The translations under genes and the position numbers were made by a program. Under the pieces are notes generated by a model. The model did no database searches. It was not told the origin of the DNA and was given only the letters and a program-made list of their open reading frames with translations. Positions 6,824 to 44,218 of a DNA stretch of 47,974 nucleotides are shown here, piece after piece. Numbering within the stretch: position 1 is the first letter of the stretch; the number at the start of each line of letters is the position of its first letter. The DNA comes from Acidimicrobiales bacterium (GTDB lineage: Bacteria; Actinomycetota; Acidimicrobiia; Acidimicrobiales; VFJN01), in assembly GCA_035316325.1 (NCBI GenBank), contig DATHJB010000182.1, forward strand, positions 1 to 47,974. The letters are read 5' to 3'.

Positions 6824-8314
6824 TTACGGGCGGTCGGCGAACCAGGCGGCCTCCGCCTTGCCCATCTCGGTGGTGGGCGGGCGGTCGACCCAGGGCCAGA
6901 GCTCCTCGGCGATGCGGCGGAAGTTGGCCGTCGCCGCCAGGTCGCCCAGGATCGCCATCAGGCCCAGGTTGATCCGCTGGATGATCACGAAGCTGGCCGG
7001 CAGGTTGGCCGCCTTGGCGATCTCGCCGTAGGGCCCGGTCGGGTCGAAGAAGCGCTGCACCGTCTGCGACGACCACTCGGGCGTGATCGTCACCTCGGCG
7101 TCGTCGGCCACGAACGTGTAGAAGTGCCCGAAGTACTCGTCCACCTGCTCGTCGGTGAACGGCAGGCCCGGCGTGAGCAGCCCGATCTCCTCGATCACCC
7201 GCCGGAACGCCGGCAGGTCGCGCTCCAGCACGTAGGAGGTGATCATCCGCTCGAACTCGGTGACCTCGTGGGGCTCGAAGTACTTCACCAGCCCGAAGTC
7301 GAGGAACGTCACCCGACCACCCGGCCGGAACAGGTAGTTCCCCGGGTGCGGGTCGCCGTTGAAGGCGTGCAGCCGGTAGAGGCTGCGGAACACGAACCGG
7401 TAGATCGCCTCGGCGGCCAGGTTGCGCTCGTCCTGGCTCCAGGTGAGCAGCTCGTCGAACCGCACGCCGTCGGCCAGGTCGCTGGTGAGCACCCGCCCGG
7501 TCGACAGCTCCGGCACCACGTCGGGCACGTGGATGAACGGGTGGTCCCGGTAGTAGTCGGCGAAGAGCTGCTGGCTGCGGGCCTCCAGCTCGTAGTCGAG
7601 CTCCTCGACCACCCGGGCCCGGATCTCCTCCACCAGCGGTCCTGCCTCGAGGCCGGGGAACATCATGCCGACGACCCCGAACAGCAGGCCGGCGTTGTCG
7701 AGGTCCGCCCGGATCGCCTCGTCGACCCCCGGGTACTGCACCTTGACCGCCACCGCCCGGCCGTCGCGGGTGAGCGCCCGGTGCACCTGACCGATCGACG
7801 CCGACGCGATCGGCACCGGGTCCCACTCCAGGAACACCCGGTCGGGTGGGGCGCCGAGCTCCTGCGCCACGGTGTCGGCGGCCAGCTCGGGGGACATCGG
7901 CGGGGCGTCCTGCTGGAGCCCCGCGAGGACCTCCCGCACCGGTTCGGCGATGCCGGTGTCGAGGTACGACGCCATCTGGCCCAGCTTCATCAGGGCGCCC
8001 TTCATGTGGCCCAGGGCCTCGGCGACCTGCTCGGCGGTGCGCAGCTGGAAGGCGACGTCGAGCTCGTCCTGCCGCTCGGCGGAGGCGAAGGTCCGCCGGG
8101 CCTTGTGCACGGCGTACGTCGCCCCGCCCTTGGCGCCCATGCGGGCGAGCTTGCGGCTGCGGTCGACCCGGGACACCAGCCGGATCGGCGAGCGGGCGCC
8201 GGGGCCGCCGGCGGCGTCGTTGGCGTCGTTGGCGGGCAGGCGGCGGGCGTAGGCGACGGCGGCTCCCGCCACCACGAGCCCTCCCGCCACCAGGAAGGCA
8301 CGGCGGCGTCGCAC
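6824..8314 (-). CDS. ABC1/UbiB-family atypical protein kinase-like protein
   Basis: A 496-residue member of the ABC1/ADCK/UbiB group (protein-kinase-like ATPases linked to isoprenoid quinone or lipid metabolism). An N-terminal hydrophobic segment (AFLVAGGLVVAGAAVAYA) would anchor it in the membrane. The KGALMKLGQMASYL helix is the family-specific KxGQ motif. PIASASIGQVHRA is the Ala-rich nucleotide loop, AVAVKVQYPGV contains the ATP-binding lysine, and GDPHPGNYLF with FLDFGLVKYF gives the catalytic and DFG-type motifs. A GTG start at 8314 with an AGGATCCGGGGC leader was preferred over upstream starts. No quinone-biosynthesis genes are adjacent, so the substrate is unknown. Confidence 0.88.
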   Translation of the reverse strand: MRRRRAFLVAGGLVVAGAAVAYARRLPANDANDAAGGPGARSPIRLVSRVDRSRKLARMGAKGGATYAVHKARRTFASAERQDELDVAFQLRTAEQVAEALGHMKGALMKLGQMASYLDTGIAEPVREVLAGLQQDAPPMSPELAADTVAQELGAPPDRVFLEWDPVPIASASIGQVHRALTRDGRAVAVKVQYPGVDEAIRADLDNAGLLFGVVGMMFPGLEAGPLVEEIRARVVEELDYELEARSQQLFADYYRDHPFIHVPDVVPELSTGRVLTSDLADGVRFDELLTWSQDERNLAAEAIYRFVFRSLYRLHAFNGDPHPGNYLFRPGGRVTFLDFGLVKYFEPHEVTEFERMITSYVLERDLPAFRRVIEEIGLLTPGLPFTDEQVDEYFGHFYTFVADDAEVTITPEWSSQTVQRFFDPTGPYGEIAKAANLPASFVIIQRINLGLMAILGDLAATANFRRIAEELWPWVDRPPTTEMGKAEAAWFADRP

Positions 8315-22662: not shown

Positions 22663-24261
22663 ATGCGAGGCGATCTCGAGTGGGGGACGATCCCGAACCT
22701 GGCCCGGTCGGCCGCCGAGCGCTTCGCCGACGACGAGGCCCTGGTCGACGGTGACGCCCGGCTGACCTTCGCCGACCTCTGGACCGAGGCCCGCCACGCC
22801 GCCAAGGCGTACGTCGCGGCGGGGGTCGAGGCCGGCGACCGGGTGGCGATCTGGGCGCCCAACATCTGGGAGTGGCCGGTCGCCCTGCTGGGCCTCCAGG
22901 CCGCCGGGGCTGTGGCCGTGCCGCTCAACACCCGTTTCAAGGGTGGCGAGGCCGCCTACGTGCTCAGCCGCAGCCGGGCCCGACTGCTGGTCACCGTCGA
23001 CGGCTTCCTCGGCAACGACTACGTGGCGATGCTCGCCGACCAGGAGCTCCCGCACCTCGAGCGCATCGTGGTGCTGCGGCCGGTCGAGGGTGGCGCAGAG
23101 GACCGGCCGGGCGTCCCGCCGGTGGTCCCGTGGATCGACTTCCTGCTGGAGGGCGCCAAGGTCGACGACGCCGTGGTCGACGAGCGCCTCGCCGCCCTCT
23201 CGCCCGACGACGTGAGCGACATCATGTTCACCTCGGGCACCACCGGGGCACCGAAGGGCGTGATGGCCGCCCACGGACCGACGGTGCGGGCGTACGCCGA
23301 CTGGGCCGACCTCGTCGGGCTCCGCCGGGGCGACCGCTACCTGGTGCTCAACCCGTTCTTCCACTCGTTCGGCTACCGGGCCGGCATCGTGTCGTCGCTG
23401 GCGGCGGGGGCGACGATGGTCCCCCAGGCCGTGTTCGACGTGCCCGAGGCCATGCGCAACATCGCCGACCACCGGATCACGATGCTCCCGGGCGCGCCGG
23501 CCATCTACCAGACCATCCTCAACCACCCCGACCTGGCCGACTTCGACCTCTCGTCGCTGCGGCTGGCGGTGACCGGCGCCGCCGCCGTCCCCGTGTCCCT
23601 GGTGGAGCGGATGTGGTCGGACCTCGGCTTCGAGACGGTGCTGACGGCGTACGGGCTCACCGAGGCGACCGGCTTCGTCACCTCGTGCCGGGCCGACGAC
23701 GACGCCCGGACCGTCTCCGAGACGTCCGGCCGGGCCATCCCCGGTGTCGAGGTGCGGATCGTGTCCGACGACGGCGTGGCGCTGCCCGCCGGCGAGACGG
23801 GCGAGATCGTGGTGCGGGGCTACCAGGTGATGCTCGGCTACTTCGAGGACCCGGAGCAGACCGCCGAGGCCGTCGACGTCGACGGCTGGCTGCACACCGG
23901 CGACGTGGGCTGGATGGACGAGCAGGGCTACGTCCGGATCACCGATCGCCTGAAGGACATGTACATCGTCGGCGGGTTCAACGCCTACCCGGCGGAGATC
24001 GAGAACCTGCTGTCGCGGCACCCCGACATCGGGCAGGTCGCGGTGATCGGGGTGCCCGACGAACGGCTCGGCGAGGTGGGCGTGGCGTTCGTGGTGCCGG
24101 CCGTCGGCCACACGCCCGAGCCCGACGCCATCGTCGCCTGGGCCCGCGAGCAGATGGCCAACTACAAGGTGCCGCGCCACGTGCGCATCGTCGACGCCCT
24201 GCCGCTCAACCCCTCCGGCAAGGTCCTGAAGTACCAGCTACGAGACGAGGTCGCCCGATGA
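22663..24261 (+). CDS. FadD3-like acyl-CoA synthetase
   Basis: 532 residues of ANL fold: IMFTSGTTGAPKGVMAAH (P-loop), FFHSFGYRAGIVSSL, AYGLTEATGF, GWLHTGDVGWMDEQGYVRITDRLKDMYIVGGFNAYPAEIE and the catalytic lysine in NPSGKVLKYQL. The arrangement and motif wording are close to actinobacterial FadD3, the ligase for HIP (steroid rings C/D), but this is a resemblance and not proof. Start ATG 22663 follows CAGGGGGACC. The TGA overlaps the ATG of the next gene, a luciferase-like oxidoreductase. Confidence 0.85.
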   Translation: MRGDLEWGTIPNLARSAAERFADDEALVDGDARLTFADLWTEARHAAKAYVAAGVEAGDRVAIWAPNIWEWPVALLGLQAAGAVAVPLNTRFKGGEAAYVLSRSRARLLVTVDGFLGNDYVAMLADQELPHLERIVVLRPVEGGAEDRPGVPPVVPWIDFLLEGAKVDDAVVDERLAALSPDDVSDIMFTSGTTGAPKGVMAAHGPTVRAYADWADLVGLRRGDRYLVLNPFFHSFGYRAGIVSSLAAGATMVPQAVFDVPEAMRNIADHRITMLPGAPAIYQTILNHPDLADFDLSSLRLAVTGAAAVPVSLVERMWSDLGFETVLTAYGLTEATGFVTSCRADDDARTVSETSGRAIPGVEVRIVSDDGVALPAGETGEIVVRGYQVMLGYFEDPEQTAEAVDVDGWLHTGDVGWMDEQGYVRITDRLKDMYIVGGFNAYPAEIENLLSRHPDIGQVAVIGVPDERLGEVGVAFVVPAVGHTPEPDAIVAWAREQMANYKVPRHVRIVDALPLNPSGKVLKYQLRDEVAR

Positions 24262-34349: not shown

Positions 34350-35168
34350 TCACCAGAGCTGGTCGGTGTAGCGGTCGGTGCCGGGGACCGTCGGGACGAA
34401 CGGCGACGCCCACCGGACGACGCCCTCGCCGTTGGCCTCGAGGGCCTCGGCGTAGGCCTCGACGGCGGGCCACCAGTGCTCGGGCTCGGAGTCGGCGAAC
34501 CACAGCTGCAGCTCCCGCCGCTCGACGCCCGTGGCGCCCGGCTGGGTGACGGGGGCGCCCGGCGGCAGCGGGATGCCGGACCAGCGCAGCACCAGCGCCA
34601 CCGACGAGTCCGGGCCGAGGTCCCACTGGGGGACCGGGGCCTTGCGGTCGGCCTCGGGCGGCCGCTCGACGATCACCGCCGCCAGCCCCTGGAACGGGTG
34701 GTCGAGCGCCAGCTCGGGCGGGACACCGTCGTCGTCGCGCCGCTCGGCGCCCCGGTAGCGGTAGATCAGCGTGTGGATGTGGTCGCGGTGGGGGAACATC
34801 CGGCCGTTGTCGTGCAGCCACTTCACCTGCCGCGAGCCCCAGTCGGTGTTCTCGGGGCCCCGGCCGTCGAGCACCCAGTACAGCGCCAGGTACGACCCGG
34901 CGGCGTCGTCGCCGAACAGCGGCGACTCGCCCGAGCCGATCCGCCGGTCCTTCAGGTCGCGGGTCGACACCCAGCGGCGGCCGGCGAAGAACCACGGCCC
35001 GACCATGCAGCCGGCGTAGAAGTGGTCGCGCTCGTACCATCGGTGGTACGCCACCTCGTGGCCCTTGTGCGGCTCCACCAGGGTGAACAGCATCGACCCC
35101 AGCACCACCTCGCCGCCGAGGTCGTCGACCCGATCGCTCAGGGCTCCGGTGTCGCTCGCGGCGCTCAC
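34350..35168 (-). CDS. unknown protein coupled to an amidohydrolase
   Basis: 272 residues from a GTG (35168) that overlaps the TGA of the amidohydrolase (GTGA). No family is recognised with confidence. The N-terminal part (GSMLFTLVEPHKGHEVAYHRWYERDHFYAGCMVGPWFFAGRRWVSTRDLK) looks like a dimeric alpha-beta barrel of EthD/antibiotic-biosynthesis-monooxygenase style, with conserved-looking His and Trp. The second half contains FPHRDHIHTLIYRYRG and EPEHWWPAVEAYAEALEANGEG. It contains many Trp, His and Tyr. The operon position behind a KstR-like site suggests a role in steroid or terpenoid breakdown. Confidence 0.7.
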   Translation of the reverse strand: MSAASDTGALSDRVDDLGGEVVLGSMLFTLVEPHKGHEVAYHRWYERDHFYAGCMVGPWFFAGRRWVSTRDLKDRRIGSGESPLFGDDAAGSYLALYWVLDGRGPENTDWGSRQVKWLHDNGRMFPHRDHIHTLIYRYRGAERRDDDGVPPELALDHPFQGLAAVIVERPPEADRKAPVPQWDLGPDSSVALVLRWSGIPLPPGAPVTQPGATGVERRELQLWFADSEPEHWWPAVEAYAEALEANGEGVVRWASPFVPTVPGTDRYTDQLW

Positions 35169-36400
35169 CGGGTGATCCCGAAGCGCTCGAGCCCGAAGGC
35201 GGTGATGGCGTTGCCCCGGAGCAGCTGGTAGGTCTCGGTCTCGCTCAGCCCGGCGCCGGCGCAGATCTCCGTGGCCACCTTCTTGCTGTGCGGGAACGTC
35301 GAGTCGGCGTGCGGGTAGTCGGTCTCGAAGCAGATCTGCTCGATGCCGATGGCGTCCCGGTTCCGCAGCCCGGTCTCGTCGTCGAAGATGCAGCCGTACA
35401 CCCGGCCGGCGATGTACTCGGACGGGCGGCGGGGGAGCGACGTGCCGAAGCTGTTGTCGGACCGCTCGGCCCACAGCTTGTCGGCCCGCTCCAGCACGTA
35501 GGGCATCCAGCCGACCTGGCCCTCCGAGTAGGCGATCTTCATCGTCGGGAAGCGCTCGAGCGTGCCGGAGAAGATGAAGTCGAGCATCGAGCCCATGGCG
35601 TTCTGGAACGTGAGCGTGGAGCTGACGATGAAGGGGGCGTCGGGCGACGTGGCCGGCATCCGGGACGACGAGCCGATGTGCATGCACACCACGGTCTCGG
35701 TGTCCTGGCAGGCGGCGAAGAACGGGTCCCACTTGCCCGAGTGGATCGACGGGAGGCCCAGTGGGTGCGGGTTCTCGGAGAAGGCGACGGCGTGGCTGCC
35801 CTTGTCGGCGCAGCGGTGGATCTCGTCGGCGGCCAGCTCAGGGTCCCACAGGGGGATGATCGTGAGCGGGATGAGGCGGCCCTTGCCCTCGCCGCCGCAC
35901 CACTCGTCGATCATCCAGTCGTTGTAGGCCTCGACGCAGAGCTGGGCGAGCTCCGGGTCGCCGTCCTCCCGCTTGATGCCCTGCTCGTAGAAGGTCTGGC
36001 CGCAGAAGCGGGGGAGCGTGTTGGGGAAGCAGATCGAGGCGTCGACGTGGTTGGCGGTCATGTCGGCCAGGCGCTCGGACTGGATCCAGCAGCCGGGGCG
36101 GATCTCGTCGTAGGTGGTGGGGGTGACGTCGAGGTCGTCGAACCCCACGGCGGCGGAGAGCTTGGGGAAGGGGTAGACGAGGCCGTCGTAGAGCCACCAG
36201 TCGCACCACTCGCCCTCGGGGACGCCCTTCTCGAAGGAGAAGCGGCCCCCCTTGAAGGAGAAGACGGCCCGGTCGCGCTCCACCCGGGGGCCCCGGTCCT
36301 GGTACTTGGCGGGCAGCCGGTTGCTCCACAGGTCGGGTGGCTCGACCACGTGGTCGTCGACCGAGATGATCCTCGGGATCTCGGTTGTCGCTTCGCTCAT
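35165..36400 (-). CDS. amidohydrolase-2 family metal-dependent hydrolase
   Basis: 411 residues. It starts IPRIISVDDHVVEPPDLW, the usual opening of the PF04909-type group, where the D-x-H provides metal ligands. A middle His lies in VVCMHIGSSSRMP and the C-terminal metal Asp in CFETDYPHADSTFPHS. This group includes decarboxylases and hydrolases of cyclic acids. ATG 36400 is preceded by GAGGGGGCC, and a KstR-type palindrome lies 22 bases upstream. The gene is coupled to the unknown protein downstream. Confidence 0.9.
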   Translation of the reverse strand: MSEATTEIPRIISVDDHVVEPPDLWSNRLPAKYQDRGPRVERDRAVFSFKGGRFSFEKGVPEGEWCDWWLYDGLVYPFPKLSAAVGFDDLDVTPTTYDEIRPGCWIQSERLADMTANHVDASICFPNTLPRFCGQTFYEQGIKREDGDPELAQLCVEAYNDWMIDEWCGGEGKGRLIPLTIIPLWDPELAADEIHRCADKGSHAVAFSENPHPLGLPSIHSGKWDPFFAACQDTETVVCMHIGSSSRMPATSPDAPFIVSSTLTFQNAMGSMLDFIFSGTLERFPTMKIAYSEGQVGWMPYVLERADKLWAERSDNSFGTSLPRRPSEYIAGRVYGCIFDDETGLRNRDAIGIEQICFETDYPHADSTFPHSKKVATEICAGAGLSETETYQLLRGNAITAFGLERFGITR

Positions 36401-36421: not shown

Positions 36422-36435
36422 TAGAACGCGTTCTA
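36422..36435. promoter_or_regulatory. KstR-like operator TAGAACGCGTTCTA
   Basis: A perfect 14-bp palindrome that fits the published mycobacterial KstR pattern TnnAACnnGTTnnA. It lies directly upstream of the amidohydrolase start at 36400. KstR represses cholesterol-catabolic genes until a CoA thioester intermediate relieves it. The kstR gene itself is not in the window. Confidence 0.75.
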
Positions 36436-36477
36436 ATCCTAGGTCCCCGACGAGGCGCACACCAGTGCCGGCGGCGC

Positions 36478-37368
36478 CTATTCCCCGTCCTCTGTGGCGG
36501 CGACGTCGTGGCAGCGGCGCTGCGGTGCGTCCGATCGCCAGGCTTCGAGGATCAGGGTGACCGGGCCGAGCGGTCCGGCGATGCCGAGACGGTGCTCACG
36601 GTCGGGGTCGTCGGCCGGTTCGCCGTCGTGGTCGTGATCGTGCCCGCTGCCGTCGGCCAGGCTGCAGTCGGGGCAGAGCATCCGGAGGGTGCGGGTCCAG
36701 TCCTCGGCCTCGTGGCCCGCCTCGACGAGCCTGGTGACCAGCTCGTCGACCTCGGCCACGCGTCCGGCGCTCACCGACGCCTGGATCGTCGGCACGTCCG
36801 ACGGCGCCCACCGGGCGAGCTCGTCGAACACCGGTCGTAGACCTTCGTCGAACGCACGACGGCCCCGGGGTTCACCGTCGTGCAGGACGACGTCGCCCCA
36901 CCGGTGTCCCGACTCCGGGGTCGGGATGCAGGCAACTCGTATCCGGGCAGGGTCGATCCGGTGCCCCCACACCACCTCCGCCGTCGGGTTGAGCCGGAGG
37001 GCCGCGCGGCCGAGGTCCGCCTCGATCGGACCGTCGCCGTCCGGCAGGTCGACGCCGTAGACGCGCCATGCCCGCCGTGCCGCCGGCCAGCGGTGCAGGG
37101 CGGTCGCCGCGATCCCGAGGTTCCACCAGGCCGGTTCGTCCCGCTTCTCCCCGATCAGCTCGGTGGCCCGGAGGTTGCAGTCGAAGGCTTCCTCCCAGCG
37201 CTGCGTCCACTTGCAGACGAGGCCGAGGTCGAACCACGCCACGTGCGAGCTCGGATCCAGCCTCAGCGCCTTGCGGTAGCGCAGCTCGGCGCTGTCGAGG
37301 TCCATGTGGAGGAACCGGCCGCCGGAGCGGGTGAGCCGCTGCGCCCGCACCCTGTTGATCCCGCGCAT
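36478..37368 (-). CDS. TPR-like protein of unknown function
   Basis: 296 residues. Residues ~23-95 contain tetratricopeptide-like repeats (SAELRYRKALRLDPSSHVAWFDLGLVCKWTQRWEEAFDCNLRATELI, DEPAWWNLGIAATALHRWPAARRAWRVYG). The rest is not assigned. It contains a His/Asp-rich run (GHDHDHDGEP) and CPDC, which together could bind a metal. The start may be ATG 37368 or the Met about 21 codons later. Only 77 bases separate its stop from the amidohydrolase start, including the KstR-like site, so it is probably transcribed separately. Confidence 0.7.
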   Translation of the reverse strand: MRGINRVRAQRLTRSGGRFLHMDLDSAELRYRKALRLDPSSHVAWFDLGLVCKWTQRWEEAFDCNLRATELIGEKRDEPAWWNLGIAATALHRWPAARRAWRVYGVDLPDGDGPIEADLGRAALRLNPTAEVVWGHRIDPARIRVACIPTPESGHRWGDVVLHDGEPRGRRAFDEGLRPVFDELARWAPSDVPTIQASVSAGRVAEVDELVTRLVEAGHEAEDWTRTLRMLCPDCSLADGSGHDHDHDGEPADDPDREHRLGIAGPLGPVTLILEAWRSDAPQRRCHDVAATEDGE

Positions 37369-37381
37369 GGCGGCACGGTAG

Positions 37382-38809
37382 TCAGCTCGGGGGGATGCTC
37401 TGGGGGAAGTGGAAGAGGTGGTCGGGGTCGTAGCGGGCCTTGACCTGCCGGAGGCGGTCGAGGTTGGTGCCGTGGTAGGCGGCGGGGGCGTCGTCGCCGA
37501 GGTCGGGGTCGGCGAAGTTCGGGAACACCCGGTTCGACCCCCAGGGGTGCACCGCGGCCCACGACGCCGTCACGTGGTGGTGCGCCGCTTCCTTGTCGAC
37601 GTCCGCGGCGTCGGGGCGGAGGGCGGACGTGTGCTTGAGCTGGAACAGCTCGTCGCGGTGGACGAACGCGGTGGCGTCGGGCGCCACCCGGCCGAAGGCG
37701 CCGCCCCAGGGCATGAAGTCCAGCTCCCGGGCCTCGCCGGGCGCCGGCGGTTCGGCGAAGCGGTCGAGCAGCGTGGCGATCGCGTCGGCGGGCAGCGGGT
37801 GGCGGAAGAACTCCGACCGGCTGAGGAAGTGGAGCTGGTCGGCCGGCTCGCCGCCGTCGTCGTCGCTGCTGTCGTCGTCGCTGCCAAAGCTGGCGCCGTC
37901 CACCGTGGGGAGCTGCGCCCAGAACGCTCGGGTCTCGGGAAACGACAGCTCCGCCGACCAGGACCACCGGGGACCGGCGCCCACCCGGTCGACCAGCCCC
38001 GGCACGAGATCACCGGCGTCGCCCAGGAACGTTCCGTAGACGTCGACCGACGGCGCCCGGTCGCCCTCGGCGGTGATCTTGAGGCTGGCGTACAGCTGGT
38101 CCGGCCCGGCCGGTGCCCACGCCTGCCAGGCCTCGATCGCCGCGGCGGCCCGGGCGAAGGGCCACGACAGGTGGAACGTGGTGGTGGCCGGCGGCGCCGG
38201 GACCGTCCGGAAGGTGAGCGACGTGACCACGCCGAAGTTGCCCGCCCCCGCGCCCCGCAGCGCCCAGAAGAGGTCGGGGTGCTGCGACCCGTCGCAGGTG
38301 AGGATGCGCCCGTCGGCCAGCACGATCTCGGCGGCGAGCAGGCGATCCGACGTCAGCCCGTAGCGCCGCCCGAGGATGCCGAGCCCGCCGCCCAGCGTCA
38401 GCCCGGCGATCCCGACCGTCGGACACGTGCCCGCGGGGATGGCGAGCCCGTGGTCGTCCAACGCGGAGTACACCGCGCCCAGCCGGGCGCCGGCGCCCAC
38501 CGTGACCAGCCCACCCGCCACACCGCCCGCCAGGTCGACCGAGACCGACGCCAGCGGTGACACGTCGACGACCACACCCCGGGCGATCGTCGAGTGCCCG
38601 GCGAAGCAGTGCCCGCCGCTCCGGGCCACGAGCGGCAGCCCCTGCCGGCGGACGAACCCGATCGCCTCCCGCACGTCGGAAGCCGTCGCGCAGCGCACGA
38701 CCGCGAGCGGTGCCGGCGAGGCGAACCGGGTGTTGAACACCGGGTTCGGGCCACCCACCACGACCTCCCCGGCGATCGTCCGCTGCAGCGCCGGCCAGTC
38801 AGGTCGCAC
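37382..38809 (-). CDS. BBE-type FAD-linked oxidase with bicovalent flavin motifs
   Basis: 475 residues of the PCMH/berberine-bridge-enzyme group. VARSGGHCFAGHST carries the His for the 8-alpha bond and GTCPTVGIAGLTLGGGLG carries the Cys for the 6-S-cysteinyl bond, so FAD is likely held by two covalent links. The C-terminal NFADPDLGDDAPAAYHGTNLDRLRQVKARYDPDHLFHFPQSI is the BBE region. A low-complexity acidic run (SDDDSSDDDGGE) interrupts the substrate domain. Start GTG 38809. There is no secretion signal, so it is probably cytosolic. The substrate is unknown (carbohydrates or alcohols are usual). Confidence 0.88.
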   Translation of the reverse strand: MRPDWPALQRTIAGEVVVGGPNPVFNTRFASPAPLAVVRCATASDVREAIGFVRRQGLPLVARSGGHCFAGHSTIARGVVVDVSPLASVSVDLAGGVAGGLVTVGAGARLGAVYSALDDHGLAIPAGTCPTVGIAGLTLGGGLGILGRRYGLTSDRLLAAEIVLADGRILTCDGSQHPDLFWALRGAGAGNFGVVTSLTFRTVPAPPATTTFHLSWPFARAAAAIEAWQAWAPAGPDQLYASLKITAEGDRAPSVDVYGTFLGDAGDLVPGLVDRVGAGPRWSWSAELSFPETRAFWAQLPTVDGASFGSDDDSSDDDGGEPADQLHFLSRSEFFRHPLPADAIATLLDRFAEPPAPGEARELDFMPWGGAFGRVAPDATAFVHRDELFQLKHTSALRPDAADVDKEAAHHHVTASWAAVHPWGSNRVFPNFADPDLGDDAPAAYHGTNLDRLRQVKARYDPDHLFHFPQSIPPS

Positions 38810-38859
38810 CCGGCGAATCTACGGGTGGACCCCGCTCGACCGGCCCGCTTGCTCAGAAT

Positions 38860-38873
38860 TAGAACGTGTTCTA
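38860..38873. promoter_or_regulatory. KstR-like operator TAGAACGTGTTCTA
   Basis: Matches TnnAACnnGTTnnA exactly; its half-sites are identical to those of 36422-36435. It lies in the gap between the divergent BBE-type oxidase and the aldehyde dehydrogenase, about 30 bases before the dehydrogenase start. It probably controls the four-gene run ending with the FadD19-like ligase. Confidence 0.8.
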
Positions 38874-38902: not shown

Positions 38903-40342
38903 ATGCTGATCGGGGGCGAGCGGGTCGCCGGTGCCAGGGGCACCTACGACATCGTGAACCCCGCCACCGAGGAGATCGTCGGCGCTGCCCCCGAGGCATC
39001 GCCCGACCAGGTGGCCGACGCCGCCCAGGCCGCCGCCGACGCCTTCCCCGCCTGGTCGCGCACCAAGCCGGCGGAGCGGGCCGAGCTGCTCGACCGCCTG
39101 GCCGACGCCGTGCGCGAGCGCAAGGACGACTGGATCCCCCTGGTGCAGGCCGAGACGGGGGCGACGCTGCGGGTGGCCTCCACCATGCAGGTGCCCACCA
39201 CCATCGAGCGCTTCCGCCGCTACGCCCGGGGCGCCATGGAGTCGACCACCGAGCCTCTCGCGCCGGCCGAGATGCCGGCCACCGCGCTGTCGACCGGAGC
39301 CCTCGTGGGCGCGGTCGTCGAGCGCCGGCCCGTCGGCGTGGTCGCCTGCATCACCCCGTACAACTTCCCGCTGGTCAACATGGCCGGCAAGCTCGGCCCT
39401 GCACTGGCGATGGGCAACACGGTCGTGATCAAGCCCGCCCCGCAGGACCCGCTCGCCGTGCTCCGCTTCGCGGAGGCGGTGGAAGCGGCGGGCTTCCCGC
39501 GGGGCGTGGTCAACATCGTCTCCGGGAGCGGCGCCGAGGCCGGCGAGGCCCTCGTCGCCGCTCCTCAGGTCGACATGGTGAGCTTCACGGGCTCCACCGC
39601 GGTCGGCCAGCGCATCGGCCAGGTCGCCGGCCACGACATGAAGCGCCTGCTGCTCGAGCTGGGTGGCAAGGGCGCCGGTCTGGTGTTCGACGACGCCGAC
39701 CTGAAGACCTCCATCGGCGCCATCGCGAGCGCGTGGGCGTTCCACTCCGGGCAGATCTGCACCGCACCGACGCGGGTGATCGCACAGCGCGGCATCTACG
39801 ACCAGTTGGTCGAAGGTCTGGCGTTCGCGAGCACGAAACTGCAGGTCGGAGACCCTCTCGATGCAAGGACTGTGGTGGGGCCGGTAATCTCCGCCGCACA
39901 GCGAGATCGCATCGAGGGCTACATCCGAGTGGGCGCCGGGGAGGGCGGGTCGGTCGTAGCTGGGGGCGAGCGGCCCGCGCTGGGGCCTGGGTTCTACGTC
40001 ACCCCGACGCTGATCTCCGGGTGCAAGGCGGGCATGACCGTGGTCCAGGAGGAGATCTTCGGACCGGTCGTCGTCGTGCTGCCGTTCGACGACGAGGACG
40101 AGGGCATCGCCCTCGCCAACGGCACCGACTTCGGGCTCAACGACTACGTGTTCACCGGCGACACCGCCCGGGGGATGCGGGTGGCCCGGCAGCTGCGATC
40201 GGGCAACGTGGCCATCAACACCGTGCAGCAGCATCCCGAGGCGCCCTTCGGCGGCTTCAAGCTCTCCGGCGTCGGCCGGGACCGGGGCAGCTACGGGTTG
40301 CACGCCTACAGCGAGATCCAGTCGATCGTCTGGCCGGGCTGA
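38903..40342 (+). CDS. NAD(P)-dependent aldehyde dehydrogenase
   Basis: 479 residues. The opening is MLIGGERVAGARGTYDIVNPATEE. The cofactor/oxyanion segment is ACITPYNFPLVN, FTGSTAVGQRI is the nucleotide-binding loop, the catalytic Glu is in LLELGGKGAG and the nucleophile Cys in HSGQICTAPTRV. ATG 38903 has a GGGGGAAGAG leader; GTG 38885 is an alternative. It is the first gene behind a KstR-like site and is followed by an alcohol dehydrogenase, so the pair probably oxidises a side-chain alcohol to the acid that the FadD19-like ligase activates. Confidence 0.92.
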   Translation: MLIGGERVAGARGTYDIVNPATEEIVGAAPEASPDQVADAAQAAADAFPAWSRTKPAERAELLDRLADAVRERKDDWIPLVQAETGATLRVASTMQVPTTIERFRRYARGAMESTTEPLAPAEMPATALSTGALVGAVVERRPVGVVACITPYNFPLVNMAGKLGPALAMGNTVVIKPAPQDPLAVLRFAEAVEAAGFPRGVVNIVSGSGAEAGEALVAAPQVDMVSFTGSTAVGQRIGQVAGHDMKRLLLELGGKGAGLVFDDADLKTSIGAIASAWAFHSGQICTAPTRVIAQRGIYDQLVEGLAFASTKLQVGDPLDARTVVGPVISAAQRDRIEGYIRVGAGEGGSVVAGGERPALGPGFYVTPTLISGCKAGMTVVQEEIFGPVVVVLPFDDEDEGIALANGTDFGLNDYVFTGDTARGMRVARQLRSGNVAINTVQQHPEAPFGGFKLSGVGRDRGSYGLHAYSEIQSIVWPG

Positions 40343-40358: not shown

Positions 40359-41465
40359 GTGAGAGGAATCGTTTGGACCGGTGACCTGGAGGTCCGGGAC
40401 GACGTCGAGGTGCGTGACGTCCGCCCCCACGAGGTGCGGGTGCACATCGTCAACGCCGGTCTCTGCCACAGCGACGTGTCCGTGATCGACGGCACCATCC
40501 CGTTCCCGACGCCCGTGGTGATGGGCCACGAGGGCGCGGGCGTGGTCGACCAGGTGGGCGACGCCGTCACCAAGGTGAAGGTCGGCGACCACGTCGTGCT
40601 GACGACCCTGGGCAACTGTGGCCGCTGCGCCGCCTGCGACCGGGGCCAGCCCACCCACTGCCGCGACACGATGGGCCGGCTGCCCCGCCCCTTCACGGTC
40701 GGCGGCGAGAAGGCGTTCCAGTTCGCCAACGCCGGGGTGTTCACCGAGGCCGTGGTGGTCAGCGAGACCCAGGCGGTGGTGATCGATCCCGAGGTCCCCT
40801 TCACGGCCGCCTGCCTCATCGGCTGTGCCGTCGTGACGGGGGCGGGCGCGGTGCTCAACCGGGCCAAGGTCCAGCCGGGCCAGACGGTGGTGATCATCGG
40901 CGCCGGCGGCATCGGTCAGTCGGCCATCCAGGCGGCCCGCATCGCCGCGGCGAGCCGGATCGTCGTGGTCGACGCCAACCCCGCCAAGGAGGACGTGGCC
41001 CGCCGCTTCGGCGCCACCGACTTCGTCGACCCCCGCGCGGTCGGAGCGAGCGGTGACGGCGCGGCGAGCCATGAGATGTCCACGGTGGTCGCCATCAAGG
41101 ACCTGGGCCTGCCCAACGGCGTGGACCACGTCTTCGAGTGCGTCGGCCACCCGGACCTGATCCGCCAGGCCGTCGCCCTGCTCGACTGGGGTGGCACCGT
41201 CACCCTGCTCGGCGTCCCCAAGCTGGGCAGCGAGGCCGGCTTCGTGGTGAACGACCTCTACAACGACAAGTCGATCCTCGGCTGCCGCTACGGCTCGACC
41301 CGGCCGCACCACGACATCCCGCTGCTCGTCGGCTTCTACAAGGACGGCCGGCTGCTGCTCGACGAGATGGTCAGCCAGGTCTACCCCCTCGACCAGATCA
41401 ACCAGGCCCTCGACGACCTGCACCACGGGAAGCTCAATCGTGGCGTCCTGCAGGTCGCCCAGTAG
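40359..41465 (+). CDS. zinc-dependent alcohol dehydrogenase (class III-like)
   Basis: 368 residues of the medium-chain dehydrogenase family. The catalytic zinc ligands are in NAGLCHSD and MGHEGAG. Structural zinc is held by the four-Cys run NCGRCAACDRGQPTHC. The cofactor motif is VVIIGAGGIGQSAIQAA, with VVVDAN. It resembles the NDMA-dependent or formaldehyde-type actinobacterial alcohol dehydrogenases. The GTG start is 17 bases after the aldehyde dehydrogenase stop. Confidence 0.92.
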   Translation: MRGIVWTGDLEVRDDVEVRDVRPHEVRVHIVNAGLCHSDVSVIDGTIPFPTPVVMGHEGAGVVDQVGDAVTKVKVGDHVVLTTLGNCGRCAACDRGQPTHCRDTMGRLPRPFTVGGEKAFQFANAGVFTEAVVVSETQAVVIDPEVPFTAACLIGCAVVTGAGAVLNRAKVQPGQTVVIIGAGGIGQSAIQAARIAAASRIVVVDANPAKEDVARRFGATDFVDPRAVGASGDGAASHEMSTVVAIKDLGLPNGVDHVFECVGHPDLIRQAVALLDWGGTVTLLGVPKLGSEAGFVVNDLYNDKSILGCRYGSTRPHHDIPLLVGFYKDGRLLLDEMVSQVYPLDQINQALDDLHHGKLNRGVLQVAQ

Positions 41466-41479
41466 GAGGAAAGCACGAC

Positions 41480-42607
41480 ATGGAGTTCGGCGTCTTCGCC
41501 CAGCTGTTCGTCCCCCGCTTCGAGCGGGACAAGGATCCGAACGCTGAGCACCTGCGCATCTTCCGCAACGTCGAGATCGCCAAGGCGGCGGACCAGCACG
41601 GCTTCAAGTACGTGTGGTGCCCGCAGCACCACTTCCTCGACGAGTACAGCCACATGCCCGGGCCCGAGGCCTTCCTGGCGTTCTGCGCCGCGCAGACCGA
41701 GCGGGTGCACCTCGGCTCGGCGATCTTCAACATCACGCCGGCGGTGAACAAGCCGCAGCGGGTGGCCGAGAACGTCGCCCTGCTCGACCACCTCACCAAC
41801 AACCGGTTCGAGTTCGGCACCGGTCGCGGGTCGTCGACCACCGAGGTCCATGGCTTCGACATCGCCGACATCAACGAGACCAAGCTGATGTGGCGCGAGG
41901 CGATCAACGAGATCCCGAAGATGTGGAAGGACGCGCCCTACAGCTACGACGGGCAGTACTTCCGCATGCCGGAGCGCAAGGTGTTCCCCAAGCCCCACGG
42001 GCCGCTGCACCCGGCGATGTGGGTGGCCGCCGGCTCGCCGGGCACCTTCACCGAGGCCGGTGAGCTGGGACTGGGCGCCTTCTGCTTCTCGCTGGGCCGC
42101 CCCCAGCAGATGGAGCCGCTGGTCACCAACTACAAGAAGGCTGTGGTCAACGCCACGCCGGTGGGCGACTACGTGAACGACAACATCATGGGCGTGACCA
42201 ACATGCTGTGCATGGAGGACCGCCGCAAGGCGTTCGAGGTCGCGTCCAGCATGGGCATGAACTACTACTCGACGCTCGCCTACCACTGGCTCGACAACGT
42301 GCCCCGGCCCAAGACCCTGCCCGAGTGGCCCGAGAAGATCCCGGAGCCGACGCCCGAGCAGGTGGAGCAGCTGTCGGCCGACGGCTTCGTCGTGATCGGT
42401 GACCCCGACGACTGCGCCCGCTCGGTGCAGAACTGGGTGGACATGGGCTTCGACCAGCTCACCTTCAGCCCCACCACCAACACGCTGCCGACAGAGGTCG
42501 TGGTCGGGTCGATGGAGCTGTTCGGCCACGAGGTCGTCCCGCAGTTCGACACCGACCCGGAGCACTCCACCACGCGCTATCGCCGGCAGGCCGTGGCGAA
42601 GCTGTAG
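41480..42607 (+). CDS. LLM-class (luciferase-like) monooxygenase/oxidoreductase
   Basis: 375 residues, longer than the two other family members here and closer to bacterial luciferase-type monooxygenases: MEFGVFAQLFVPRF, AKAADQHGFKYVWCPQHHFLDEYSHMPGPEAFLAF, LGSAIFNITPAVNKPQRVAENVALLDHLTNNRFEFGTGRGSSTTEVHGF. AGGAGGA is a strong ribosome-binding site. It sits between the alcohol dehydrogenase and the FadD19-like ligase under the KstR-like site, so a steroid or terpenoid side-chain or ring substrate is plausible. Confidence 0.9.
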   Translation: MEFGVFAQLFVPRFERDKDPNAEHLRIFRNVEIAKAADQHGFKYVWCPQHHFLDEYSHMPGPEAFLAFCAAQTERVHLGSAIFNITPAVNKPQRVAENVALLDHLTNNRFEFGTGRGSSTTEVHGFDIADINETKLMWREAINEIPKMWKDAPYSYDGQYFRMPERKVFPKPHGPLHPAMWVAAGSPGTFTEAGELGLGAFCFSLGRPQQMEPLVTNYKKAVVNATPVGDYVNDNIMGVTNMLCMEDRRKAFEVASSMGMNYYSTLAYHWLDNVPRPKTLPEWPEKIPEPTPEQVEQLSADGFVVIGDPDDCARSVQNWVDMGFDQLTFSPTTNTLPTEVVVGSMELFGHEVVPQFDTDPEHSTTRYRRQAVAKL

Positions 42608-42619
42608 CAAGCTGCGGTC

Positions 42620-44218
42620 ATGGGGGGACCCCGCAGCTTCAACCTGGCCGACATCTGGGAGATGGCGGCCGACCTGGTGCCGGCGCGCGAAGCGCTGGTG
42701 GTGGGCGACCAGCGTCGCACCTACGCCGAGCTCGAGGACCGGGCCAACCGCCTGGCGCACCATTGGGCGTCGCTCGGGGTGGGCCCGGGCGACCACGTGG
42801 GCGTGTACCTGCAGAACTGCGCCGAGTACGTCGAGGCGATGCTGGCGGCGTTCAAGCTGCGGGCCGTGCCGGTCAACGTCAACTACCGCTACGTGACCGA
42901 CGAGCTGCGCTACCTGCTCGACAACAGCGACAGCGTGGCGGTGCTCACCCAGCCGTCGCTGCGCGACCGGGTCGACGCGGTGCTGGGCGACCTGCCGGAC
43001 GTGCGGTCGGTGCTGTCCACCGGCGACGACTACGAGGCGGCCCTGGCGGCGGCCCCGGGCGACGGCGCCCGGCCGGACGTCGAGCGCTCCGGCGACGACC
43101 ACTACGTGCTCTACACGGGCGGCACCACGGGCCTGCCCAAAGGCGTCGTGTGGCGCCACGAGGACGCCTTCTACGCCTGCATCGGCGGCGGCGACGCCAT
43201 GCGCCTGCAAGGCCCGGCCGAGCGGCCCGACGAGCTGCCGGACCGCATGCTCGACCAGCAGTACACGTACATGCCGCTGGCGCCGATGATCCACGCCGCG
43301 GCCCAGTGGACCACGCTGTCGTGGCTGTTCTGCGGCGGCAGGACGGTGCTGATGCCGGGCTCGCTCGACCCGGCCGCGGTGTGGCGGACGGTGGCCGCCG
43401 AGGGCGTGCAGGGGCTGACCGTGATCGGCGACGCCGTCGCCCGACCGCTGCTCGACGAGTGGGACCGGGCCGGCGGCTACGACGTCTCGTCGCTGTTCTC
43501 GTTCAGCAACGGCGGCGCCCCGATGTCGAGCGCCACCAAGGAGCGGGTGCTGAAGGCGCTGCCGCAGGTGATCCTGGTCGACGGGTTCGGCTCGTCGGAG
43601 GCCGGGACGCAGGGGGCGTCACGGGTCACGGCCGACCAGCGCGACGCCGGGGCCTCGCTGGTGAGCTTCGACCGGCCGACCAAGCCGACGATCGTGGTCG
43701 ACGGTGCGGGCACGCCGGTCGTGCCGGGGTCGGGAGTGGTGGGCCAGGTGCTGGCCGGGGGGCGCCTGCCGCTCGGCTACCACAACGATCCGGAGCGCAC
43801 CGCCGCCACCTTCCTGGAGCGCGACGGCGAGCGCTGGCTGGTCACCGGCGACATGGCCACGGTCGAGGCCGACGGGGCCATCGCCCTGCTGGGCCGGGAG
43901 TCGGGCGTGATCAACACGGGCGGCGAGAAGGTGTTCCCCGAGGAGGTCGAGGCGGTCCTCAAGGCGCACCCGTCGGTGTACGACTGCCTGGTGGTGGGCG
44001 TGGCCGACCCGCGGTGGGGGAGCGCCGTGACGGCCGTCGTCCAGGCGGTGCCGGGCGTCGCGCTGTCGCTCGACGACCTGGTGGCGCACTGCAAGGGGCA
44101 CCTGGCGGGCTACAAGGCACCCAAGCGGGTGGTGCTGGTCGACTCGGTGGTGCGGTCGCCTACCGGCAAACCCGACTACCGCTGGGCCGCTTCGGTCGGC
44201 TCCTCCGGCAGTCTTTGA
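42620..44218 (+). CDS. FadD19-like steroid side-chain acyl-CoA ligase
   Basis: 532 residues of the ANL family. The wording closely follows mycobacterial FadD19 (the C24/C26 sterol side-chain ligase): RTYAELEDRANRLAHHWASLGV, VPVNVNYRYVTDELRYLLDNSD, YTGGTTGLPKGVVWRHED (P-loop, residue ~163), INTGGEKVFPEEVEAVLKAHP and the end SPTGKPDYRWA with the catalytic Lys. It is the last gene of the KstR-site operon. Its TGA (44216-44218) is supplied by a palindromic element that also supplies the stop of the convergent gene. Orthology to FadD19 is inferred from memory of the family. Confidence 0.85.
   Translation: MGGPRSFNLADIWEMAADLVPAREALVVGDQRRTYAELEDRANRLAHHWASLGVGPGDHVGVYLQNCAEYVEAMLAAFKLRAVPVNVNYRYVTDELRYLLDNSDSVAVLTQPSLRDRVDAVLGDLPDVRSVLSTGDDYEAALAAAPGDGARPDVERSGDDHYVLYTGGTTGLPKGVVWRHEDAFYACIGGGDAMRLQGPAERPDELPDRMLDQQYTYMPLAPMIHAAAQWTTLSWLFCGGRTVLMPGSLDPAAVWRTVAAEGVQGLTVIGDAVARPLLDEWDRAGGYDVSSLFSFSNGGAPMSSATKERVLKALPQVILVDGFGSSEAGTQGASRVTADQRDAGASLVSFDRPTKPTIVVDGAGTPVVPGSGVVGQVLAGGRLPLGYHNDPERTAATFLERDGERWLVTGDMATVEADGAIALLGRESGVINTGGEKVFPEEVEAVLKAHPSVYDCLVVGVADPRWGSAVTAVVQAVPGVALSLDDLVAHCKGHLAGYKAPKRVVLVDSVVRSPTGKPDYRWAASVGSSGSL

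Follow-up and report, generated by a model that had tools for sequence, protein, structure and literature searches.

KstR-type operators in an Acidimicrobiales genome mark a probable catabolic regulon detached from sterol import and sterol-nucleus degradation

Control of catabolic genes by the TetR repressor KstR (Rv3574) has been described in Mycobacterium tuberculosis and M. smegmatis (PMC1995591, PMC3068626). In M. tuberculosis, the palindrome TAGAAC(N2)GTTCTA was proven as the KstR site by electrophoretic mobility shift assay; it is occupied by a KstR dimer and lies upstream of the −10 region, with which it partly overlaps (PMC1995591). According to a comparison of 31 genomes, KstR and its sites arose in an ancestor shared by Rhodococcus and the mycobacteria (PMC3388012). 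Of the side-chain enzymes, M. smegmatis needs FadD19 when the sterol side chain is branched at C24 but not when it is straight, and Rhodococcus Ltp3 and Ltp4 were reported to be needed in the same way (PMC6273163). In this study, we analyzed a 47,974-base stretch of DNA, hereafter the window, which is contig C182 of the 6.37-Mb draft genome of an Acidimicrobiales bacterium (G000; 244 contigs, 96.8% complete). The window carries two palindromes of the KstR type, and a first-pass annotation had taken them as marks of a probable sterol catabolic locus outside the Mycobacteriales; the lineage does lie outside that order. We consider it probable from the sequence data that a TetR repressor of the KstR family uses the two palindromes as operators and that the regulon behind them degrades bulky branched acids via their coenzyme A (CoA) esters, uncoupled from sterol import and from degradation of the sterol nucleus.

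Compared with the mycobacterial regulon, several features are alike: the same 14-bp palindrome, a gene for a KstR-family TetR protein with a site at its own operon, and FadD19-, EchA19-, Ltp3-, Ltp4- and Rv3520c-type genes near sites. In contrast to mycobacteria, the Acidimicrobiales genome has two repressors, spreads its genes over several contigs and yielded no mce4, KstD or HsaC; and sites are carried by amidohydrolase genes, by an operon for an aldehyde dehydrogenase (ALDH), an alcohol dehydrogenase (ADH), a luciferase-like (LLM) flavin oxidoreductase and an acyl-CoA ligase, and by a riboflavin operon.

The first operator, TAGAACGCGTTCTA (36422-36435), lies 22 bp upstream of an amidohydrolase start codon. 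The second, TAGAACGTGTTCTA (38860-38873), lies 30 bp upstream of the ALDH start and 51 bp upstream of the start of a divergent flavin adenine dinucleotide (FAD) oxidase gene. Both are intergenic and exact 14-bp palindromes of the form TAGAAC(N2)GTTCTA, standing before genes that they would regulate, and they are the only matches to the core TnnAACnnGTTnnA in the window, so that the two sites proposed earlier are real as motifs. In dinucleotide shuffles of the window, the core occurred 0.07 times on average, and one of 100 shuffles contained two matches. With the stricter pattern TAGAACNNGTTCTA, allowing up to two mismatches, the same two sites were recovered, and none of 100 shuffles reached two. 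Both sites lead into TATTCT or TATTTC, which is consistent with the M. tuberculosis arrangement over the −10 region; a promoter scan gave nothing above its threshold.

Sites were also sought in the whole genome and placed relative to genes predicted by a simple codon-usage caller. The strict motif form has four sites, against none for the reversed control, and the loose form has 35 against 14. All 13 sites containing a TAGAAC half are intergenic, most of them at 3-70 bp from the start codon that follows; of six sites lacking this half that were examined, five fall inside genes. Also, the motif follows the regulator across genomes. Among 79 Acidimicrobiales genomes, 30 encode a KstR homologue and 49 do not; the strict motif is present in 22/30 of the former and 2/49 of the latter (p 6e-11). 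This association persists outside the family of the window (15/23 vs 2/49, p 4e-8), as it does with families as the unit of counting (14/20 vs 2/40, p 2e-7). In total, KstR-positive genomes have 67 sites against 4 control matches, and KstR-negative genomes have 2 against 11.

The placement of the sites is kept in relatives. Perfect sites stand at the equivalent position before the ALDH orthologues of G001, a genome of the same family (78% identity), and of G051, from another family (74%). On contig C174 of G001, one site (13160) precedes the ALDH-ADH-LLM-ligase operon and a second (14790; TAGAACGTGTTCTA) the pair formed by the amidohydrolase gene and a gene of no known family; in this sister genus, a transporter resembling the major facilitator superfamily (MFS) lies between the operons, replacing a TPR protein and the FAD oxidase. 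In G003, TAGAACGTGTTCTA is found before the same amidohydrolase operon (C430:7415), and in G051 a single shared site lies between the divergent amidohydrolase and ALDH operons (C485). The conserved unit thus consists of the two operons and their sites, excluding the intervening DNA.

Two KstR homologues are encoded on other contigs (C240:9010-9609, E 1e-24; C1:6819-7478, E 1e-27), both full-length proteins that match M. tuberculosis KstR along almost their entire sequence; a whole-genome search found no third. Their five best matches in the PDB, namely KstR entries and 3bjb, a Rhodococcus-type TetR relative, range from E 1e-22 to 1e-27, followed by the next at about 1e-7. A stretch surrounding the recognition helix, GGY.AVQMR.VA...VA.GT.YRYF.SK, is nearly invariant across both homologues and KstR. 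A TAGAACGTGTTCTA site (C240:7763) precedes the FadE-kstR operon, placing a KstR-type site at the repressor's own operon, and next to the C1 repressor gene the site TAGAACGCGTTTCA (C1:9040) separates a divergently transcribed pair of ligase and FadE genes. In a phylogenetic tree of KstR proteins, those from Acidimicrobiia form a clade of their own (100/99), apart from the Mycobacteriales and Streptomyces proteins, which argues against recent transfer from mycobacteria. The KstR-like control assumed in the first-pass annotation therefore agrees with the sites, the repressor homologues, their co-occurrence and the conserved placement, all of which are read directly from sequence; from these we infer repression and the kind of substrate. 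One record in the tree, L086 (PKRH01000043.1), is titled Thermoanaerobacterales bacterium ZC4RG19; it has an Acidimicrobiales-type KstR locus, groups with Acidimicrobiales and is probably mislabelled.

Further TAGAAC-type sites outline the gene content of the putative regulon. On C176, the site at 508 precedes genes for an OB-fold protein, Ltp4-type and Ltp3-type thiolases and a short-chain dehydrogenase/reductase (SDR), and the site at 8136 precedes an amidohydrolase gene with one for a KshA-type Rieske oxygenase. Other sites precede genes for a nitronate monooxygenase-type protein (C160), an enoyl-CoA hydratase (C219:2369), a further amidohydrolase-like protein (C50) and a DAP_DH_C-domain reductase with an SDR (C52). 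As a positive control, we used the record of Nocardia farcinica NCTC11134 (NZ_LN868939.1), whose cholesterol cluster (about 190-320 kb) contains KstR, KstD, hsa-type, KshA-type and mce-type genes as well as sites. There, LLM, OB-fold, Ltp4 and Ltp3 genes are located by a TAGAACGTGTTCTA site, and the same gene types are found on C176 here; unlike the genome studied, the Nocardia cluster has KstD, hsa and mce genes and a KstR over the NCBI cut-off. Counterparts of the cluster on C1 and C176 are 71% (EchA19), 66% (Ltp3), 57% (Ltp4), 54% (Rv3520c-type LLM), 52% (FadD19) and 51% (OB-fold protein) identical, the Nocardia FadD19, Ltp3 and Ltp4 being named by family and gene order. NCBIfam cut-offs were passed by the LLM protein (TIGR03559), the thiolases (PRK07937 and PRK08313) and the ligases (PRK07798). 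The EchA19 counterpart passes PRK07799 and is narrowly under the EchA19 equivalog cut-off (397.6 vs 400). The side-chain-type enzyme set predicted from the window, with a gene order differing from that of mycobacteria, is thus present, its FadD19-, EchA19-, Ltp3/Ltp4- and Rv3520c-type members being encoded on other contigs.

One perfect site (C219:25392-25405; L025:8393) precedes a riboflavin operon, ribD-ribE-ribBA-ribH, whose families were confirmed in this genome. Similarly placed genes in two relatives also carry a perfect site (G001, C190:5743, L236; G003, C454:2848, L242). The site hints that the supply of flavins and F420 may be co-regulated with the catabolic enzymes.

In the window, operator 1 would control two genes on the minus strand, encoding the amidohydrolase (35165-36400; PF04909, E 3e-28) and a conserved partner protein (34350-35168) with no Pfam or NCBIfam family. 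Counterparts of the partner in G001, G051 and G002 are 53-66% identical, and no significant fold match was found for its low-confidence predicted structure (mean pLDDT 52). It has a strongly conserved N-terminal motif, GHEVAY.RWYERDH..AGCM.GPW. Operon 2, on the plus strand, starts with the ALDH gene (38903-40342), followed by genes for a zinc ADH of the class III/NDMA-type family (40359-41465), the LLM flavin oxidoreductase (41480-42607) and the acyl-CoA ligase (42620-44218). The gene types given for both operons in the first-pass annotation proved correct. Between the operators, a TPR protein (36478-37368, minus strand) is probably outside the regulon, as it is not conserved at that place in the sister genus. 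For the berberine-bridge-type FAD oxidase (37382-38809, minus strand), divergent from operator 2, membership is uncertain, its place in G001 being occupied by the MFS-like transporter. The LLM protein of the window scores under every NCBIfam LLM cut-off and was rejected as an Rv3520c type; the Rv3520c type of this genome is the one on C176.

The ligase of operon 2 had been described as close to FadD19, which holds for its subfamily and fails for orthology. It is a member of PRK07798, the subfamily containing FadD19, with 644.9 bits (cut-off 543; Nocardia FadD19 827.9 bits), and is 44.6% identical to the Nocardia FadD19 named by gene order. In a ligase tree, all PRK07798-type ligases fall into one 12-row clade (support 100/100). 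Within this clade, the window ligase and its counterparts from G001, G002, G008 and G051 form a subclade of their own, and the other subclade holds Nocardia FadD19 together with the C1 and C240 ligases, the dividing branches having 89% support. By sequence, the window ligase is a FadD19-like paralogue of the genome's FadD19 counterparts, inside the FadD19 subfamily and not FadD19 itself; its candidacy as FadD19 orthologue was rejected, since Nocardia FadD19 has closer relatives in the C1 and C240 ligases. For the second C1 ligase, the nearest NCBIfam model is FadD4, below its cut-off.

Based on these genes, the following mode of action can be proposed. A repressor dimer on each palindrome, beside or over the −10 region, would keep both window operons off, and the product of a FadD19-type ligase, a bulky acyl-CoA, would detach it from the DNA. 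An acid would be formed by the alcohol and aldehyde dehydrogenases and converted to its CoA ester by FadD19-type ligases. This ester could be shortened by FadE, EchA19 and Ltp3/Ltp4 with a ChsH2-type OB-fold partner and by LLM oxidoreductases, and KshA-type oxygenases and amidohydrolases may act on ring or ester parts. The regulon would be detached from sterol import and from breakdown of the sterol nucleus, both of which seem to be missing from the genome, and its substrate may be a terpenoid-, isoprenoid- or sterol-side-chain-type acid.

As a special case of this explanation, the regulon may serve lipid and terpenoid acids in general, the KstR family being an old acyl-CoA regulator and sterol use a derived trait of Mycobacteriales; we regard this, tentatively, as the strongest of the narrower readings. 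A broader lipid role has already been proposed for KstR (PMC3388012), and the separate Acidimicrobiia clade fits an old family. Also, Streptomyces have KstR homologues with TAGAAC-type sites, although 55 of 57 Streptomyces genomes lack a steroid pathway (PMC4810484). In our data, nearly all KstR homologues of Streptomyces, Yinghuangia, Embleya and Microtetraspora (L109-L165) have a TAGAACAAGTT(T/A)CA-type site about 200 bp upstream, and in S. scabiei an Rv3520c-type LLM gene and an ALDH gene are nearby. Unlike in the Acidimicrobiales, the other half-site in Streptomyces is usually GTTTCA or GTTACA, and the regulators form a separate clade. Since most Streptomyces lack the pathway, such sites are not diagnostic of sterol use, and this regulator/operator pair supports an older, broader role for the KstR family. 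On its own, a general role does not account for the association of the FadD19-Ltp3-Ltp4-Rv3520c set with the regulator in Acidimicrobiia. A cluster in another member of that class, Acidiferrimicrobium sp. IK (L124), likewise has a KstR homologue within an Ltp3-Ltp4-OB-fold-LLM-EchA19-FadE-ALDH gene set; in contrast to the scattered genes here, it is a single compact cluster, and no site was found in it with the pattern used. More doubtful is that the KstR-family regulator of Acidimicrobiales acts as main switch of a catabolic regulon not directed at the sterol nucleus and also controls the riboflavin operon, and thereby the supply of FAD, flavin mononucleotide and F420 to the regulon's numerous flavin- and F420-dependent enzymes.

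A second special case, side-chain-only sterol metabolism, would have C24-branched, phytosterol-type chains shortened and the nucleus released. The enzymes that were kept include FadD19, Ltp3 and Ltp4, whose role in C24-branched chains was noted above, yet we regard this case as unlikely. Little carbon would be gained from the chain; no MlaD/Mce protein, and hence no Mce importer, was found in the genome; and behind the sites no cytochrome P450 gene was identified that would initiate oxidation of the side chain, P450 genes, like those for HsaA, HsaD and IpdAB, not having been searched genome-wide. Close to the kstR operon of G001, a LIV-type ABC transporter is preceded by a TAGAACCTGTTCTA site (C155:13617; L235:5617), and it is possible that this transporter serves as importer replacing Mce4.

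Full catabolism of sterols, side chain and nucleus, under KstR-like control would require that the missing genes lie in assembly gaps or were replaced by unrelated enzymes, and appears improbable. In its favor, the FadD19/EchA19/Ltp3/Ltp4/Rv3520c set is present, and some other Acidimicrobiales (G009, G052, G060, G066 and G074) carry KstR, KstD and Mce together. Five KshA-family (KshA_C) oxygenases are over the cut-off in the genome, one of them under a site, the C176 copy having KshA structures as its best matches (E 1e-35 to 1e-42). In contrast, no KstD was found: the only two full FAD_binding_2 proteins detected in the genome are L-aspartate oxidase (NadB) and succinate dehydrogenase (SdhA), and a Nocardia KstD query had no match in this genome or its six same-family genomes. 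The same query matched 12 of the 79 Acidimicrobiales, and the surroundings of the six best KstD genes, out to about 1.5 kb, contained no KstR-type site. Mce proteins are likewise absent from five of the six same-family genomes; across the Acidimicrobiales they occur in 25/79, and their link to KstR is not significant (p 0.09). An HsaC-like enzyme was not found either: among extradiol dioxygenases, the best candidate (C72) most resembles biphenyl (BphC) and catechol enzymes, with HsaC in ninth place, and has no hsa-like neighbours. Accordingly, the sterol pathway proposed in the first-pass annotation, with kstD, hsaC, kshA and mce4 as its expected markers, kept KshA homologues, KstR-like control and side-chain-type enzymes, lost the other three markers, and was rejected as a full pathway. 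The five KshA-family oxygenase genes lie on C29, C46, C176 and C187, several of them near amidohydrolase-like genes, a recurrent pairing. In the same-family genome G005, KstR, a site and an mce operon share one contig; we rejected this contig as a sterol locus, as the mce operon has no site and no kstD, kshA or hsa genes occur in the 40 kb read.

That the palindromes arose by chance or serve an unrelated TetR protein, given that short palindromes can do so and that the genome has many TetR genes, is very improbable and was rejected in view of the shuffles, the genome controls, the intergenic placement kept as a footprint in relatives, and the co-occurrence with KstR.

Some points weigh against the detached regulon that we favor. 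In a draft of 244 contigs, a single absence could be a gap, which is less likely for several together. Both repressors reach 136.8-138.3 bits on the NCBIfam model NF033703 (cut-off 280; Nocardia KstR 334.5) and thus are KstR-family members rather than KstR equivalogs; given these scores, their ligand may differ from that of KstR, and their binding to the sites and its effect on expression are predictions. A FadD3-family ligase encoded in the window (22663-24261) passes its cut-off, and a pathway for rings C and D would use one too. This ligase gene is part of a second large acyl-CoA catabolic region (8347-28838), which has no KstR-type site and encodes a CoA transferase, a MaoC-type protein, FadE, an OB-fold protein with a thiolase, hydratases, two F420 LLM proteins and a TetR protein with TetR_C_38. 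An exact KstR2-type motif was not found in the window; one match with one mismatch is at chance level.

A search of the accessible literature for KstR in Acidimicrobiia, hopanoid degradation or a KstR-riboflavin link found nothing relevant. That this operator recurs in another class of the phylum, and is statistically linked there to KstR homologues, speaks for a system of greater age or for an ancient transfer. As a caution, neither a KstR-type site nor a homologue of KshA or FadD19 suffices to call an organism a sterol degrader. The bacterium studied here also provides a set of FadD19/Ltp enzymes, uncoupled from the steroid nucleus, that lends itself to testing. If the KstR-family regulator of Acidimicrobiales indeed controls such a regulon, then, together with the Streptomyces sites, the KstR/TAGAACNNGTTCTA pair would be older than the cholesterol catabolism of Mycobacteriales.

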